DNA of 64,000 nt from the NCBI GenBank assembly GCA_017617545.1, contig JAFZVZ010000017.1, positions 226,843 through 290,842 of the forward strand. The letters are read 5' to 3'. A model generated the notes under the pieces. The model was not told the DNA's origin, did not search any database, and saw nothing but the letters and a program-made list of their open reading frames with translations. Numbering within the stretch: the stretch's first letter is position 1; the number at the start of each line of letters is the position of its first letter. This document shows positions 3,547-12,059 of this stretch, in pieces. The DNA comes from Lachnospiraceae bacterium (GTDB lineage Bacteria > Bacillota > Clostridia > Lachnospirales > Lachnospiraceae). Made by a program: the position numbers and the translations under genes.

Positions 3547-3647
3547 AGCAGAGTAAGAGCGGAAGCGTCAAGTGTCCGGGGGACGGGGAGTTGCCCTCGG
3601 AACGAAAAGCCGAAAGGCTTGCGGTTTCCGGTCTGCATCCCGCTGCT
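3547..3647 (+). promoter_or_regulatory. Tetrahydrofolate (THF) riboswitch of folT
   Basis: The sequence matches the THF/folT riboswitch pattern: P1 AGCAG (3547-3551) with CTGCT (3643-3647), a GAGTA near the 5' strand, the GCGTCAAGTGT segment, a GGGAGTTGCC loop, AACGAAAAGCC and GCATCCCGCT near the 3' strand. The class binds reduced folates and controls folate transport or synthesis in Clostridia and Lactobacillales. It sits directly upstream of folT, which fits. Recognition is from memory of the consensus; a covariance-model search would confirm it. Confidence 0.85.
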
Positions 3648-7155: not shown

Positions 7156-9321
7156 ATGAGCAAGAAAGACAAGGATCCTGGTAGTAAGAAGCAGGAATCA
7201 TCTGTAACAGCGGAGCCGAAAGCAGCTGAGCAGACGCCCGCTGCAAACAAGAGCAACAAGGCTCTGATCATCGCGCTGATCATCATGTCGGTCATTGCGA
7301 TCGTTCTCGGCATACTGCTTTGGAAATCCCAATCCGATAAGAACAACACGCCTGAGACTACCCCCGGGGTAACGACCGCGACCACGCCTACGGAAGCACC
7401 CGATGCAACACCGACAGGGGACGCTGTTTCGCCGACGGAACCTGCTGCGCCTACGACCGAGGTTTCTCCTACACAGGAAGTAACTCCGACGGAGGAAGTG
7501 ACACCGACGCCGAAGTCTTTCTACATGCCGGATTACATCGGACAGGACTATCTGATCGCCATGGAGAAGTTGCAAAACTTTGACGTGAGCTTACAGATCT
7601 CCTGCATGAAATATACGTCGGATTACGACGAGTTATTTGAGATGGCCGGCCCGATCGAAGATTTCCCTGTGGAAGGACAGGTGGTAGCACAATTACCCAA
7701 AGCGGGAGAGCATGTAAGCGAGGGCAGCACGATCCTTCTGATCTACAGCCCGGGCGCCGCTGCGATCACGCCTACGGGTGCTGCGGTTTCGACACCTACG
7801 CCTGTACCTACGACAGCTCCGACATCCACGCCTACTGTGGCTCCAACAGCCGCACCGACAGCTGCGCCTACAGCGCAACCCACAACGGCTCCTACGTCCG
7901 CTCCTACAGCAGCACCTACCGCGGCACCTACCGCCGAGCCGACAAAAGCACCTACGGCTACACCGACGCCGAAGCAGGTTTCCGGCAAGACGCCGGTCGG
8001 TGTGCACGGACGCCTGTCCGTCAAGGGCACGAAGATCGTAGACCAGAACGGCAAGGAATACCAGCTCAAGGGTGTAAGCACGCACGGTCTGCAGTGGTTC
8101 CCGCAGTTTGTCTGCAAGGAGACATTCCAGTGCATCCGCGATGAATGGGGCGCCAATGCAGTACGTCTTGCAATGTACACCGACGAGGGCGGTTACTGCG
8201 CGGGCGGAGACAAGGCAGCGCTTAAGAAGCTCGTCAAGGACGGTGTAAAATACGCGACCGATCTCGGTCTGTACGTGATCATCGACTGGCATATTCTCCA
8301 CGACTACGATCCGAACCAGAACAAGGATGAGGCCATCAAATTCTTCGATGAGATGTCGAAGGAATTCGCAAGCTACAACAACGTATTTTACGAGATCTGC
8401 AATGAGCCGAACGGCGGCATCTCCTGGTCGAGCGTAAAATCCTACGCCGAGGAGGTCATCCCCGTGATCCGCAAGAACGATCCGAAGGGCATCATCATCG
8501 TCGGCACACCGACCTGGTCCCAGGATGTCGATATCGCGGCTAAGGATCCGATCAAGGGTTACGACAATATCATGTACGCGCTTCATTTCTATGCCGGCAC
8601 ACACAAGGACAATATCCGCAGCAAGATGAAGACCGCGATCGAGGCCGGACTTCCCGTGTTTGTTTCCGAGTACGGCATCTGCGACGCTTCCGGCAACGGC
8701 GCATGCAACGAGACCGAGGCCAACAAATGGGTCGCTTTCATGGACAACTACGGCGTCAGCTACATGATCTGGAACCTCGCCAACAAGAACGAGTCGTCCT
8801 CACTGATCAAGCAGAACTGCAAGAAGCTGTCCGGCTTCACCGAGGCTGACCTAAACCAGGAAGGCCGCTGGCTTGTGAAAATGCTCGGCGGTGAGCTTCC
8901 GAAGATGACAGAAGAGGACCTCAAGAAGCTTGAGGATGACGCCGGCGGAAGCGGCGGCGGAGACGTTGCAGTACCCGACGGCATCGAAAAGACCGTGAAA
9001 TCCGGTGATGTGATGGTCACCCTGTATACCTCCAACACCTGGAACGAGACAAATTTCAAGTGCTATCAGCTCGGACTGACCATCGAAAACGCAAGTTCCA
9101 AGGCGATTAACGGCTGGAGTGTTGTAGTCACGTTCAATTCCGAAGTGAAGAGCGACAACTTCTGGTGCTGTGGGTTCGCAACAAAGGGCAAGACCATGAC
9201 CCTGACCCCGGCTGACTTCAACAAGACAATCGCAGCAGGAGCCCAGACCTCGGATATCGGATTGATCATTCAGTCCAAGTCCCTCCTCAAGATCGAATCC
9301 ATTGAATTCAAATCCAATTAA
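7156..9321 (+). CDS. Membrane-anchored GH5 endoglucanase with PASTA domain and C-terminal carbohydrate-binding module
   Basis: 721 aa. Residues 1-35 are a charged cytoplasmic tail and 36-56 a transmembrane anchor without a clear cleavage site. Residues 121-196 are a PASTA-like domain (MPDYIGQDYLIAMEKL ... AGEHVSEGSTILLIYS), about 197-275 a Thr/Pro/Ala linker, and about 280-600 a glycoside hydrolase family 5 domain. The acid/base is Glu417 in NEP and the nucleophile Glu505 in SEYG. Residues about 606-721 resemble a CBM2-type module (INGWSVVVTF, FWCCG). The enzyme would cut beta-1,4-glucan (cellulose, mixed-linkage glucan or xyloglucan) at the cell surface. PASTA domains usually bind peptidoglycan stems in PBPs and Ser/Thr kinases, so a PASTA-tethered cellulase is unusual. 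AGGAAAGGA precedes the ATG. Confidence 0.88.
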   Translation: MSKKDKDPGSKKQESSVTAEPKAAEQTPAANKSNKALIIALIIMSVIAIVLGILLWKSQSDKNNTPETTPGVTTATTPTEAPDATPTGDAVSPTEPAAPTTEVSPTQEVTPTEEVTPTPKSFYMPDYIGQDYLIAMEKLQNFDVSLQISCMKYTSDYDELFEMAGPIEDFPVEGQVVAQLPKAGEHVSEGSTILLIYSPGAAAITPTGAAVSTPTPVPTTAPTSTPTVAPTAAPTAAPTAQPTTAPTSAPTAAPTAAPTAEPTKAPTATPTPKQVSGKTPVGVHGRLSVKGTKIVDQNGKEYQLKGVSTHGLQWFPQFVCKETFQCIRDEWGANAVRLAMYTDEGGYCAGGDKAALKKLVKDGVKYATDLGLYVIIDWHILHDYDPNQNKDEAIKFFDEMSKEFASYNNVFYEICNEPNGGISWSSVKSYAEEVIPVIRKNDPKGIIIVGTPTWSQDVDIAAKDPIKGYDNIMYALHFYAGTHKDNIRSKMKTAIEAGLPVFVSEYGICDASGNGACNETEANKWVAFMDNYGVSYMIWNLANKNESSSLIKQNCKKLSGFTEADLNQEGRWLVKMLGGELPKMTEEDLKKLEDDAGGSGGGDVAVPDGIEKTVKSGDVMVTLYTSNTWNETNFKCYQLGLTIENASSKAINGWSVVVTFNSEVKSDNFWCCGFATKGKTMTLTPADFNKTIAAGAQTSDIGLIIQSKSLLKIESIEFKSN

Positions 9322-9345
9322 CCCTGTTACACTTCAGGTATCCTG

Positions 9346-9382
9346 CAGCTGACGGCATCCGCCGTCAGCTGTTTCTTTTTTT
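9346..9382 (+). terminator. Strong intrinsic terminator of the GH5 gene
   Basis: CAGCTGACGG (9346-9355) pairs perfectly with CCGTCAGCTG (9362-9371), followed by TTTCTTTTTTT. Confidence 0.92.
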
Positions 9383-9424: not shown

Positions 9425-9497
9425 GAAGCGGAACGGTATAAACACCTCGGCTCGTAGGCTTCGCAATACTCGCTACGGTGTTTATCCGTTCCGCTTC
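9425..9497 (+). repeat. Hairpin element 1 with shared loop core
   Basis: A 21-bp stem: 5' arm 9425-9446, 3' arm 9477-9497, perfect except for one bulged T. It encloses a 30-nt loop containing a 24-nt core (9451-9474). That core is the exact reverse complement of the core in element 2 (9673-9696), while the stems of the two elements are unrelated. No T tract follows, so it is not an ordinary terminator. Confidence 0.85.
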
Positions 9498-9646
9498 GAG
9501 ACATCAGTGTTAAAAGGATTATTTATACTTTGGAGACTTCTCTAAACAGCATTGATAGCGTATATGCATCATTGAAAAGTATGCTGTAAGTATTGAAACA
9601 TTTATCTGATCAACAAACAAAAACAATTATTTTTCCCAAATTATTT

Positions 9647-9726
9647 ATGGGGCAGCACAACACAAATGTCGCAGCGAGTATTGCGAAGCCTACGAGCGAG
9701 ATATTTCGTGTTGTGCTGCCCCCCAT
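9647..9726 (-). repeat. Hairpin element 2 with the same core inverted
   Basis: A 15-bp perfect stem (9649-9663 with 9708-9722, GGGGCAGCACAACAC against its complement), extended imperfectly outward. It encloses a loop carrying the core at 9673-9696, which includes TATTGCGAAGCCTACGAG. Similarity to element 1 continues a few bases beyond the core with one indel. The core on this copy lies opposite in orientation to that in element 1, about 200 bp away. Confidence 0.85.
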
Positions 9727-9783: not shown

Positions 9784-9792
9784 TGGTATGAT
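9784..9792 (+). promoter_or_regulatory. Extended -10 promoter for pnp
   Basis: TGGTATGAT (9784-9792) is an extended -10 (TGn plus TATGAT). No good -35 is present, which is common with extended -10 elements. The implied leader is about 175 nt. Confidence 0.5.
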
Positions 9793-9854
9793 AGCAGATG
9801 GTATGAAAAGAAGTAGAGAGCATATGTCGGATGGAGTCATTTTCCGTGACTACT

Positions 9855-9942
9855 GAAAAGTCCGCGTTGGCGCGAAACGCAGGTTTTTCAGTTGTTACGG
9901 CGGCTCCGTCCCTGGCACCTGACTCCGGGACGCGCGCTGCAT
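9855..9942 (+). promoter_or_regulatory. Structured pnp 5' leader
   Basis: CTGAAAA pairs with TTTTCAG around an inner GCGTT/AACGC stem, and a second hairpin GTCCC/GGGAC follows. In E. coli pnp is autoregulated through cleavage of a leader hairpin; a similar role here is an inference from position only. Confidence 0.4.
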
Positions 9943-9974: not shown

Positions 9975-12059
9975 ATGTACAAAAGTTTTTCCATGGAGCT
10001 TGCAGGCAGAACGCTGACCGTCGATATCGACCGCGTTGCCAAGCAGGCGAACGGCGCCGCACTGATGCATTACGGTGACACCACCGTACTTTCCACAGCT
10101 ACGGCAAGCGAGAAGCCCAGAGACGGAATTGATTTCTTCCCTCTGAGTGTTGAGTACGAAGAGAAGATGTACGCAGTCGGCAAGATCCCCGGCGGTTTCA
10201 ACAAGCGTGAAGGCAAGGCTACCGAGAACGCAGTCCTCACCTCCCGTGTTATCGACCGTCCGATGCGCCCTCTGTTCCCGAAGGACTACCGCAACGACGT
10301 TACGATCAGCAACCTCGTTCTTTCGGTTGATCCCGACAACACTCCCGAGCTCACCGCTATGCTCGGTTCCGCGATCGCTGTTGCGGTTTCCGACATCCCG
10401 TTCGACGGCCCCTGCGCTATGACGCAGATCGGTCTCATCGACGGCCAGTTCATCGTAAACCCGTCCCAGACGCAGATGCAGGTTTCCGACCTCAAACTCA
10501 CCGTCGCTTCCACGAGAGAGAAGGTCATCATGATCGAGGCGGGCGCTAACGAGCTTCCCGAGGACAAGATGATCGAGGCGATCTACCTTGCAGACTCCGT
10601 CAACAAGGACATCATCAAGTTCATCGACAAGATCGTTGCAGAGTGCGGCAAGGCTAAGCACAGCTACACGAGCTGCGCGATCCCGGAAGAGCTGTTCGCA
10701 GCGATCAAGGAGATCGTTCCTCCGGCAGACATGGAAGTTCTCATGTTCTCCCCGGAGAAGCAGGAGCGCGAGGAGCGCATCCGCGCGATGAAGGACACGC
10801 TCGCTGAGAAGTTCGCTGAGAACGAAGAGTGGCTTCCGCTCATCGACGAGGCTGTTTACCAGTACGAGAAGAAGACGGTTCGGAAAATGATCCTCAAGGA
10901 CCACAAGCGTCCCGACGGTCGTGAGCTTACGCAGATCCGTCCGCTCTCCGCTGAAGTTGACATCATTCCGAGAGTTCACGGTTCCTCGATGTTCACCAGA
11001 GGTCAGACGCAGATCTGCGACATCGTAACGCTTGCTCCTCTTGCAGACGCACAGAAGCTTGACGGTCTCGATGAAACCGCTGTGAACAAGAGATATATGC
11101 ATCACTACAATTTCCCGTCGTACTCCGTAGGCGAGACGAAGCCTTCGAGAGGACCGGGACGCCGCGAGATCGGTCACGGCGCACTCGCTGAGAGAGCGCT
11201 CCTTCCGGTTCTCCCGAGCGAGGAAGAGTTCCCTTACGCAATCCGTGCCGTATCCGAGACGTTCGAATCCAACGGCTCGACCTCCATGGCTTCGACGTGT
11301 GCATCCTGCATGTCCCTCATGGCAGCAGGTGTTCCGATCAAGCGTATGGTTGCCGGTATCAGCTGCGGTCTTGTGACCGGCGAAACCGATGACGATTATG
11401 TGCTTCTCACCGATATCCAGGGTCTTGAGGACTTCTTCGGTGATATGGACTTCAAGGTAACCGGTACGACCGAAGGTATCACCGCGATCCAGATGGATAT
11501 CAAGATCCACGGTCTTACCCGTCCGATCGTAGAGGGCGCCATCAAGCGTTGCCGCGAGGCAAGACTGTTCATCATGGACACCTGCATGAAGCCTGCGATC
11601 GCAGAGCCTCGCAAGGAAGTCAGCAAGTTCGCTCCGAAGATCGTTCAGATCCAGATCGATCCTGCGAAGATCGGCGATGTCGTCGGCCAGAGAGGCAAGA
11701 CGATCAACGCGATCATCGAGCAGACCGGTGTTCGCATCGATATCGATGACAGCGGTGCGGTTTCCATCTGCGGAACCGACAAGGATGCGATGGACAAGGC
11801 GATCAAGCTTGTGCAGACGATCGTTACCGATTTTGAGGAAGGCATGGTTCTTGAGGGAACGGTTGTCAGCATCAAGGATTTCGGCGCATTTATCGAGTTT
11901 GCACCCGGCAAGGAGGGAATGGTTCACATTTCCAAGATTGCCAAGAACCGCATCAACCGCGTTGAGGATGTGCTCACGCTCGGCGATCATGTCAAGTGTG
12001 TCTGCCTCGGAAAGGACAAGATGGGCCGCCTGAGTTTCTCCATCAAGGATGTAAAGTAA
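9975..12059 (+). CDS. pnp: Polyribonucleotide nucleotidyltransferase (PNPase)
   Basis: 694 aa, normal length. Two RNase PH domains (the first includes GRTLTVDIDRVAKQANG and GDTTVL; the second includes RPDGRELTQIRPL and GSSMFTRGQTQ), a helical domain between them, then a KH domain (KIGDVVGQRGKTINAI) and an S1 domain (GTVVSIKDFGAFIEF). It degrades RNA 3' to 5' phosphorolytically as a trimer. ATG 9975 was chosen because PNPase begins at MYKSFSMELAGRTL; the longer frame from 9831 covers the structured leader. Codon use is strongly biased, as expected for a highly expressed gene. Confidence 0.97.
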   Translation: MYKSFSMELAGRTLTVDIDRVAKQANGAALMHYGDTTVLSTATASEKPRDGIDFFPLSVEYEEKMYAVGKIPGGFNKREGKATENAVLTSRVIDRPMRPLFPKDYRNDVTISNLVLSVDPDNTPELTAMLGSAIAVAVSDIPFDGPCAMTQIGLIDGQFIVNPSQTQMQVSDLKLTVASTREKVIMIEAGANELPEDKMIEAIYLADSVNKDIIKFIDKIVAECGKAKHSYTSCAIPEELFAAIKEIVPPADMEVLMFSPEKQEREERIRAMKDTLAEKFAENEEWLPLIDEAVYQYEKKTVRKMILKDHKRPDGRELTQIRPLSAEVDIIPRVHGSSMFTRGQTQICDIVTLAPLADAQKLDGLDETAVNKRYMHHYNFPSYSVGETKPSRGPGRREIGHGALAERALLPVLPSEEEFPYAIRAVSETFESNGSTSMASTCASCMSLMAAGVPIKRMVAGISCGLVTGETDDDYVLLTDIQGLEDFFGDMDFKVTGTTEGITAIQMDIKIHGLTRPIVEGAIKRCREARLFIMDTCMKPAIAEPRKEVSKFAPKIVQIQIDPAKIGDVVGQRGKTINAIIEQTGVRIDIDDSGAVSICGTDKDAMDKAIKLVQTIVTDFEEGMVLEGTVVSIKDFGAFIEFAPGKEGMVHISKIAKNRINRVEDVLTLGDHVKCVCLGKDKMGRLSFSIKDVK

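Follow-up and report, generated by a model that had tools for sequence, protein, structure and literature searches.

Upstream of pnp, two large hairpins with unrelated stems carry the same loop core in opposite orientation. Why should a loop be kept while the stems around it differ, and which part of such an element moves? The initial annotation of this DNA, a stretch of 64,000 nucleotides from a Lachnospiraceae genome (called 'the window' below), proposed that the core is the part recognised or mobile, and that it either inserts into hairpin loops or creates inverted copies of flanking DNA. We have examined the pair, its relatives in 22 congeneric genomes and the corresponding sites that lack hairpins.

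The hairpin pair upstream of pnp

Folding confirmed two large hairpins, with stems of 21 and 15 bp (Table 1). In element 1, 12 perfect outer pairs are followed by a one-base bulge and 9 further pairs; in element 2, the perfect 15-bp stem is followed by a bulge and 7 inner pairs. The 24-nt loop cores had been described as exact reverse complements. They are, and the exact match reaches 25 nt (96% identity over 28 nt). Within the window the core is found in these two elements only, the next best place having 6 mismatches in 24. Folded as DNA, both elements give z-scores of -6.5 to -7.2 on both strands, and none of 200 shuffles was equally stable. A crude inverted-repeat scan of the window returned 14 strong centres, the lowest in energy being element 1 (-82.7); element 2 (-64.8) is unexceptional among them.

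Table 1. Features of the hairpin locus (positions in the window)
Feature	Position	Strand	Evidence
GH5 cellulase with CBM_2	7156..9321	+	Pfam
Terminator-like hairpin 3' of the GH5 cellulase gene	9345..9372	+	Terminator scan
Element 1, A-family hairpin, 21-pair stem and one bulge	9425..9497	- (conserved tip motif strand)	Fold and model match
Element 1 core, GCGAAGC on - strand	9450..9474	-	Exact 20-nt pattern, found twice in C31 and once each in C7 and C20
AT-rich spacer separating the two hairpins	9498..9646	.	Alignment with the G016 spacer
Element 2, A-family hairpin, 15-bp perfect stem and inner stem	9647..9726	+ (tip motif strand)	Fold and model match
Element 2 core, exact reverse complement of core 1	9673..9697	+	Sequence comparison and genome pattern search
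Extended -10-like box TGGTATnAT, inferred pnp promoter, upstream of pnp and downstream of element 2	9785..9792	+	By eye
pnp (polynucleotide phosphorylase)	9975..12059	+	Pfam RNase_PH, PNPase, KH_1, S1

The terminator scan found no T run at the base of either stem, in agreement with the first reading, and the elements were therefore rejected as intrinsic terminators; the scan reported one weak 5-pair site within element 2, on the minus strand. The pair was also correctly placed upstream of a pnp gene that has no adjacent rpsO: the gene on its 5' side is, by Pfam, the GH5 cellulase. The end of the cellulase gene adjoins pnp in 10 other congeners too, so this gene arrangement predates the hairpins. 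The TGGTATnAT box is absent from the listing of the consensus promoter scan.

The pnp leader (window 9827-9920) has a conserved structure of its own, GGAGTC../CCGTGACTACTGAAAA..TTTTCAGTTGTTACGG..GGCTCC. Its part TCAGTTGTT is present in all 20 leaders read, and 9 of 32 predicted pairs are changed on both sides in an alignment of 10. This structure matches no Rfam family at gathering score and is a possible regulatory site for pnp. At the gathering cut-off, Rfam gave only a THF riboswitch and tRNAs, in a search of the window and of seven loci; the riboswitch (RF01831, 92.8 bits) lies at window positions 3547-3647. Sub-threshold matches of the hairpins are mostly to miRNA and snoRNA families.

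Copies elsewhere in the genome and in relatives

The core occurs four times in the genome that contains the window (G000): twice in the window (contig C31), once on C7 upstream of dnaA and once on C20 upstream of a pdxK-like gene (dnaA is named by Pfam, the pdxK-like gene only by reading its protein). The four cores have four different outer stems, which bears out the idea of a dispersed core, conserved within unrelated stems. In the genome-contig collection the exact core pattern was found on one contig only, a MAG contig of Lachnospiraceae bacterium RUG14085 (G016), which has the same hairpin pair at the same place by pnp.

A model built from 8 copies (R1) gave a first wider set. From 29 of its matches a covariance model (R2) was built which, with a cut-off of E<1e-5, identifies 37 copies of what we call the A family in 9 of the 22 congeneric genomes; 27 of these are training rows and 10 are new. 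Both window elements are training rows (element 1, G000:C31:236272-236334:-, E 6e-16; element 2, G000:C31:236496-236559:+, E 5e-17). There are seven copies each in G000, G009 and G011, five in G008, four in G016, three in G014, two in G015 and one each in G002 and G021. Three further rows lie at E 0.01-0.03, two of them reverse-strand readings of copies already listed. The tip versions tend to follow the species: AGTA..TAC in 4 of 7 copies in G000, GTG..CAC in 5 of 5 in G008 and TTCGAA types in 4 of 7 in G011. Four inverted pairs are present, all divergent (at pnp, G008:C53, G008:C160 and G021:C22), as well as two tandem pairs (G008:C68 and G000:C23). Two tandem hairpins 115 nt apart, with a different tip, stand at L086 11887-12063 (G000:C20); they match R1 weakly (E 0.002 and 0.04) and are either distant relatives or unrelated.

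Over 397 genomes of the family the A model matched G000 only, with few candidates scored per genome (14 among the matches listed). The core pattern, allowing up to 2 mismatches, was found in 5 of 299 family genomes. The four besides G000 all have 2 mismatches and were rejected: three have no core within 6 mismatches of the 24-mer, and that of G036 folds unlike the element. The A tip gave no match in plasmid and phage collections and the A core was not found in viral contigs.

Next to the A copy at dnaA stands a second, longer element (B), whose tip module is conserved and whose stems are different. At least 19 B copies occur in 7 of the 22 genomes (five in G008, four each in G000 and G021, two each in G002 and G016, one each in G006 and G015), as counted from a search of the dnaA region with at most 13 candidates scored per genome. 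The folding energy falls to -306 kcal/mol in an element of 528 nt and to -309 kcal/mol in one of 569 nt. In one B hairpin of 528 nt (L165, G021:C16, approximately 880-1410; -305.9 kcal/mol) both arms consist of matching tandem units, as if amplified together. We treat A and B as related because a base motif, approximately TTGYCGCA.CGA / GCGAGRCAA, is common to both (by eye, leaving out the misplaced G016C71 row). Over the 397 family genomes the B tip gave 2 matches, with at most two candidates scored per genome among the matches listed. Outside the genus, the genome G199 carries a layered hairpin whose tip resembles that of B (61 nt, 77%, E 1.7e-5). The B tip has no match in the plasmid and phage collections; eight viral contigs carry a 19-mer of it in different surroundings. 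In seven contigs of the viral collection (L182-L188) this 19-mer, GTTTGAGCGAAGCGAGTTC, lies within a short stretch that is similar from one to the next.

Sites without hairpins

Comparison with sites in close relatives, which the initial annotation had recommended, revealed hairpin-free loci at pnp, pdxK and rpmH-dnaA. At pnp, 18 of 20 loci have neither hairpin (by eye; R2 gives no match there). At pdxK the hairpin is present in G000 only, where it separates the start codon from a conserved promoter-like stretch; the other nine of the 10 usable loci are free of it, including that of the sister genome G016 (a mis-cut stretch of G014 was left out). Among six genomes read at rpmH-dnaA, both A and B are present in G000 and G008, B in G016 and two inverted B elements in G021, and neither A nor B in G002 and G011. 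These sites point to gains of whole hairpins, and gain in the carriers would be the simplest reading of all three loci. Both multiple copies and sites without them in relatives, as looked for in MITE-like elements, are thus found. The proposal that the core inserts into hairpin loops is not supported, since the empty pnp and pdxK sites show no matching arm.

Constant tips and changing stems

In an alignment of 29 A copies (28 distinct), fitted to the model and with related rows that inflate the counts, 18 of 22 pairs are changed on both sides and 97.2% of cells are standard pairs; no shuffle out of 500 equalled the alignment on all five measures. The A family conserves an internal loop (GNA/GA) and, in the 3' arm, a bulged base, and the window-type tip has in addition tandem GA and GCGAAGC. 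The latter is a very stable DNA mini-hairpin.

For the initial set of 27 A and 19 B elements we compared the outer arms (10 of the 11 copies fetched later were left out); these arms are common only to neighbours or apparent orthologues, apart from one 23-nt promoter-like match. Judged from these sequences, most loci have unrelated stems, yet paired changes of the two arms are common. Between G000 and G016, the 15-bp stem of element 2 shows four compensated changes and a single one-sided one; the stem of element 1 is identical in the two genomes. Among the dnaA-B orthologues there are 7 compensated and 31 one-arm changes by column and, of 135 pairs, 12 double changes, 30 broken and 29 gapped. 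Compensated and one-arm columns number 1 and 11 at rpsL, 1 and 16 at tsf, and 0 and 1 at pnp1. In such whole-element comparisons broken, gapped and one-arm changes thus outnumber compensated ones, a count that may include alignment error as well as true breakage. The two arms thus often change together, but not always.

Copied flanks and shared stems

The creation of inverted copies of flanking DNA, the second of the proposed mechanisms, was found in one B element and not in the others examined. The outer stem of the dnaA-B element of G008 contains an inverted copy of rpmH promoter DNA, which G002 has without the element. This copy scores 44 against at most 34 for shuffles (0 of 2000 as high; 1847 of 2000 in the same-strand control). 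The stretch CACTATAATA is present in both orientations in G008 only of six genomes, once in four, and in neither exact form in G011. For the other three dnaA-B elements, those of G000, G016 and G021, the same test gave 1384, 630 and 1175 of 2000 shuffles as high. Inverted flank copies were likewise not found at element 1, element 2 and the pdxK copy, whose arms have no match to the native flank; in this test at pnp and pdxK, 52 and 684 of 1000 shuffles were as high for the rows of G016.

Six copies in G009 and G014 have approximately 75 nt of stem and tip in common although they stand at different loci (two of them, G009:C74 and G014:C34, look orthologous), and all six have a 5'-side layer that reads GTGACAA..GTCAC or a variant thereof. 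Stems common to different loci imply that here the mobile unit carried its stems; comparison of the copies suggests that the unit probably spread with its stems attached and then drifted. A GTGACAA.GGGACAGTTCTTTTGTCAC hairpin adjoins several A elements in these genomes (L197, L198, L200, L201, L203 and L204), at some of them as inverted copies on both sides, and may be a separate repeat family.

DNA copying or RNA structure

If the hairpins acted as RNA, one strand might be expected to show it. In the outer arms we counted 78 G.T and 82 A.C mismatches (33 of 54 rows, the other 21 not exceeding their own shuffles; G014C34 was entered twice and three elements without a recognised centre were dropped). 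All mismatch types are about equally common, so unpaired bubbles dominate this count. Isolated mismatches inside helices comprise 11 G.T, 6 A.C and 15 others, in the 30 of 56 elements that exceed their own shuffles. In whole folds there are 116 wobble pairs on the tip strand and 135 on the opposite strand. In the tip and inner stem, G.T exceeds A.C by 19 to 3, a count over related rows that were fitted to the model; this suggests a strand-specific structure there. These weak tests thus give no clear strand bias in the outer stems but a hint of one in the tip, and leave DNA and RNA explanations undistinguished.

Explanations considered

At just under an even chance, we favour the following explanation as a whole. 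The A hairpins would be a clade-limited family of dispersed intergenic elements, REP/MITE-like, with arms partly rewritten together by template switching around a stable tip, and the pair in the window would be old copies. Each unit would spread as a whole hairpin, tip and stems together. After its arrival the tip sequence would be kept and the long stems would drift, often on both arms at once, because DNA copying, by hairpin-primed or quasipalindrome template switching, would rewrite one arm on the template of the other; occasionally the copying would run into the native flank and produce a longer palindrome. We infer template switching as the cause and, with it, both the stability of the tip as the sustaining factor and the route of movement. 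Excerpts of PMC8794818 propose that a loop in the nascent strand primes copying of the opposite stem, by which the stems are corrected and the loop is kept. Copying of this kind would account for stems that change around a constant tip, and would leave the arrival of copies at new loci unexplained.

A rather doubtful alternative is that the hairpin is transcribed, that a protein or ligand binds the tip, as in an IRE, and that selection on the RNA keeps the stems paired. The covariation, the conserved bulge and internal loops, and the excess of G.T over A.C both in the tip and inner stem and among isolated helix mismatches would all fit, as would the position of the pdxK copy. However, at pnp, dnaA and rpsL promoter-like sequence stands downstream of the hairpin (by eye), elements 1 and 2 read opposite ways, wobble pairs are not enriched on the tip strand of whole folds, and no Rfam family reaches its gathering score with the hairpins. 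With template switching as the favoured explanation, the tip may still act as RNA. We also think it unlikely that the tip alone is the heritable selfish unit, a self-priming fold at which the polymerase turns back and writes inverted copies of any DNA beside it, each copy thereby building and renewing a private stem. The core is indeed conserved, as expected of the mobile part that the initial annotation saw in it, but the unit that moved in G009 and G014 carried stems as well.

It is quite improbable that these are REPIN/REP-like or IS200/IS605-derived hairpins, moved by a single-strand transposase of their own for which the tip is the recognition site. In favour are the dispersal of hairpins that are bulged on one side, their occurrence in inverted and in tandem pairs, the shared units of G009 and G014 and the repeated GTGACAA..GTCAC motif flanking several elements. 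The RAYT transposase domain PF01797, carried by all RAYT homologues retrieved in the excerpt of PMC2817692, occurs in 6 of the 22 genomes (G006, G010, G012, G015, G018 and G021), and thus in only two of the nine A-carriers (G015 and G021). It is absent from the other seven (G000, G002, G008, G009, G011, G014 and G016), of which G000 is 97.6% complete and three are 79-85% complete; with PF01797 as the one domain searched, no transposase was identified, and membership in the REP/RAYT group was rejected on these grounds. GTAG REP stems, moreover, are 6-13 bp long in the part of PMC3733652 that describes them, shorter than those of A and B. It is very improbable that the two elements are the repeats that bound an invertible segment, or that they arose by a recent inverted duplication at this locus, in spite of the inverted repeat (28 nt, 96%) that encloses 192 nt and the divergent arrangement of this and the three other inverted pairs. 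A search for the core in the genome and its relatives, with folding of the matches, found it elsewhere, where it also occurs singly, and local duplication fails as an alternative. The tip base of element 1 resembles that of the pdxK copy and that of element 2 the dnaA copy, and the spacers of G000 and G016 do not align in either orientation, with scores of 2.0 and -0.8 against a shuffle mean of 0.8 (sd 3.6). Chimeric inverted reads would come to mind since the G016 contig is from a MAG and G000 is a draft of 45 contigs; such an artefact is scarcely credible when two assemblies show the pair at one and the same locus and apparently orthologous hairpins recur in other species.

Comparison with known systems

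When the two sides of a stem change in pairs, selection on an RNA structure is usually considered proven. The present family, natural and multi-copy, combines a constant tip with long locus-specific stems and includes one native promoter copied in inverted form into the opposite arm; it offers replicated cases in which bacterial template switching can be measured, and lets one ask how much covariation stems from DNA copying and not from selection.

Integron attC sites are bulged hairpins with R boxes at the base, a conserved base and a variable tip. The A family is also bulged but conserves its tip; on the A alignment, inspected by eye, neither R boxes at the base nor a variable tip was seen, and attC membership was rejected. 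As excerpts of PMC2817692 and PMC3733652 describe the REP and REPIN elements with RAYT, these too are dispersed palindromes, single and paired, with clade-specific variants. In contrast to them, the A and B stems are long, often layered and mostly locus-specific around a conserved tip, A copies number one to seven per carrier genome, and PF01797 is missing from seven of the nine A-carriers. Also looked for were a basal GTAG/CGTC tag and a short stem common to the whole family: GTAG lies inside the cores and not at the base (by eye), and the outer stems differ between most loci. The stem-loop repeat families of bacteria, as the abstract of PMC2267715 describes them, resemble the A family in being repeated intergenic stem-loops. 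Quasipalindrome template-switch mutation, as presented in excerpts of PMC8794818, fits the paired arm changes, the perfect stems and the unchanged loop; it is described there as a mutation process in RNA genes, and not as the engine of a dispersed repeat family. The initial annotation knew of no described element with this layout. The elements match no known family. Dispersed palindromic repeats as a general kind are already known, and a conserved tip with locus-specific stems is a new form of them.
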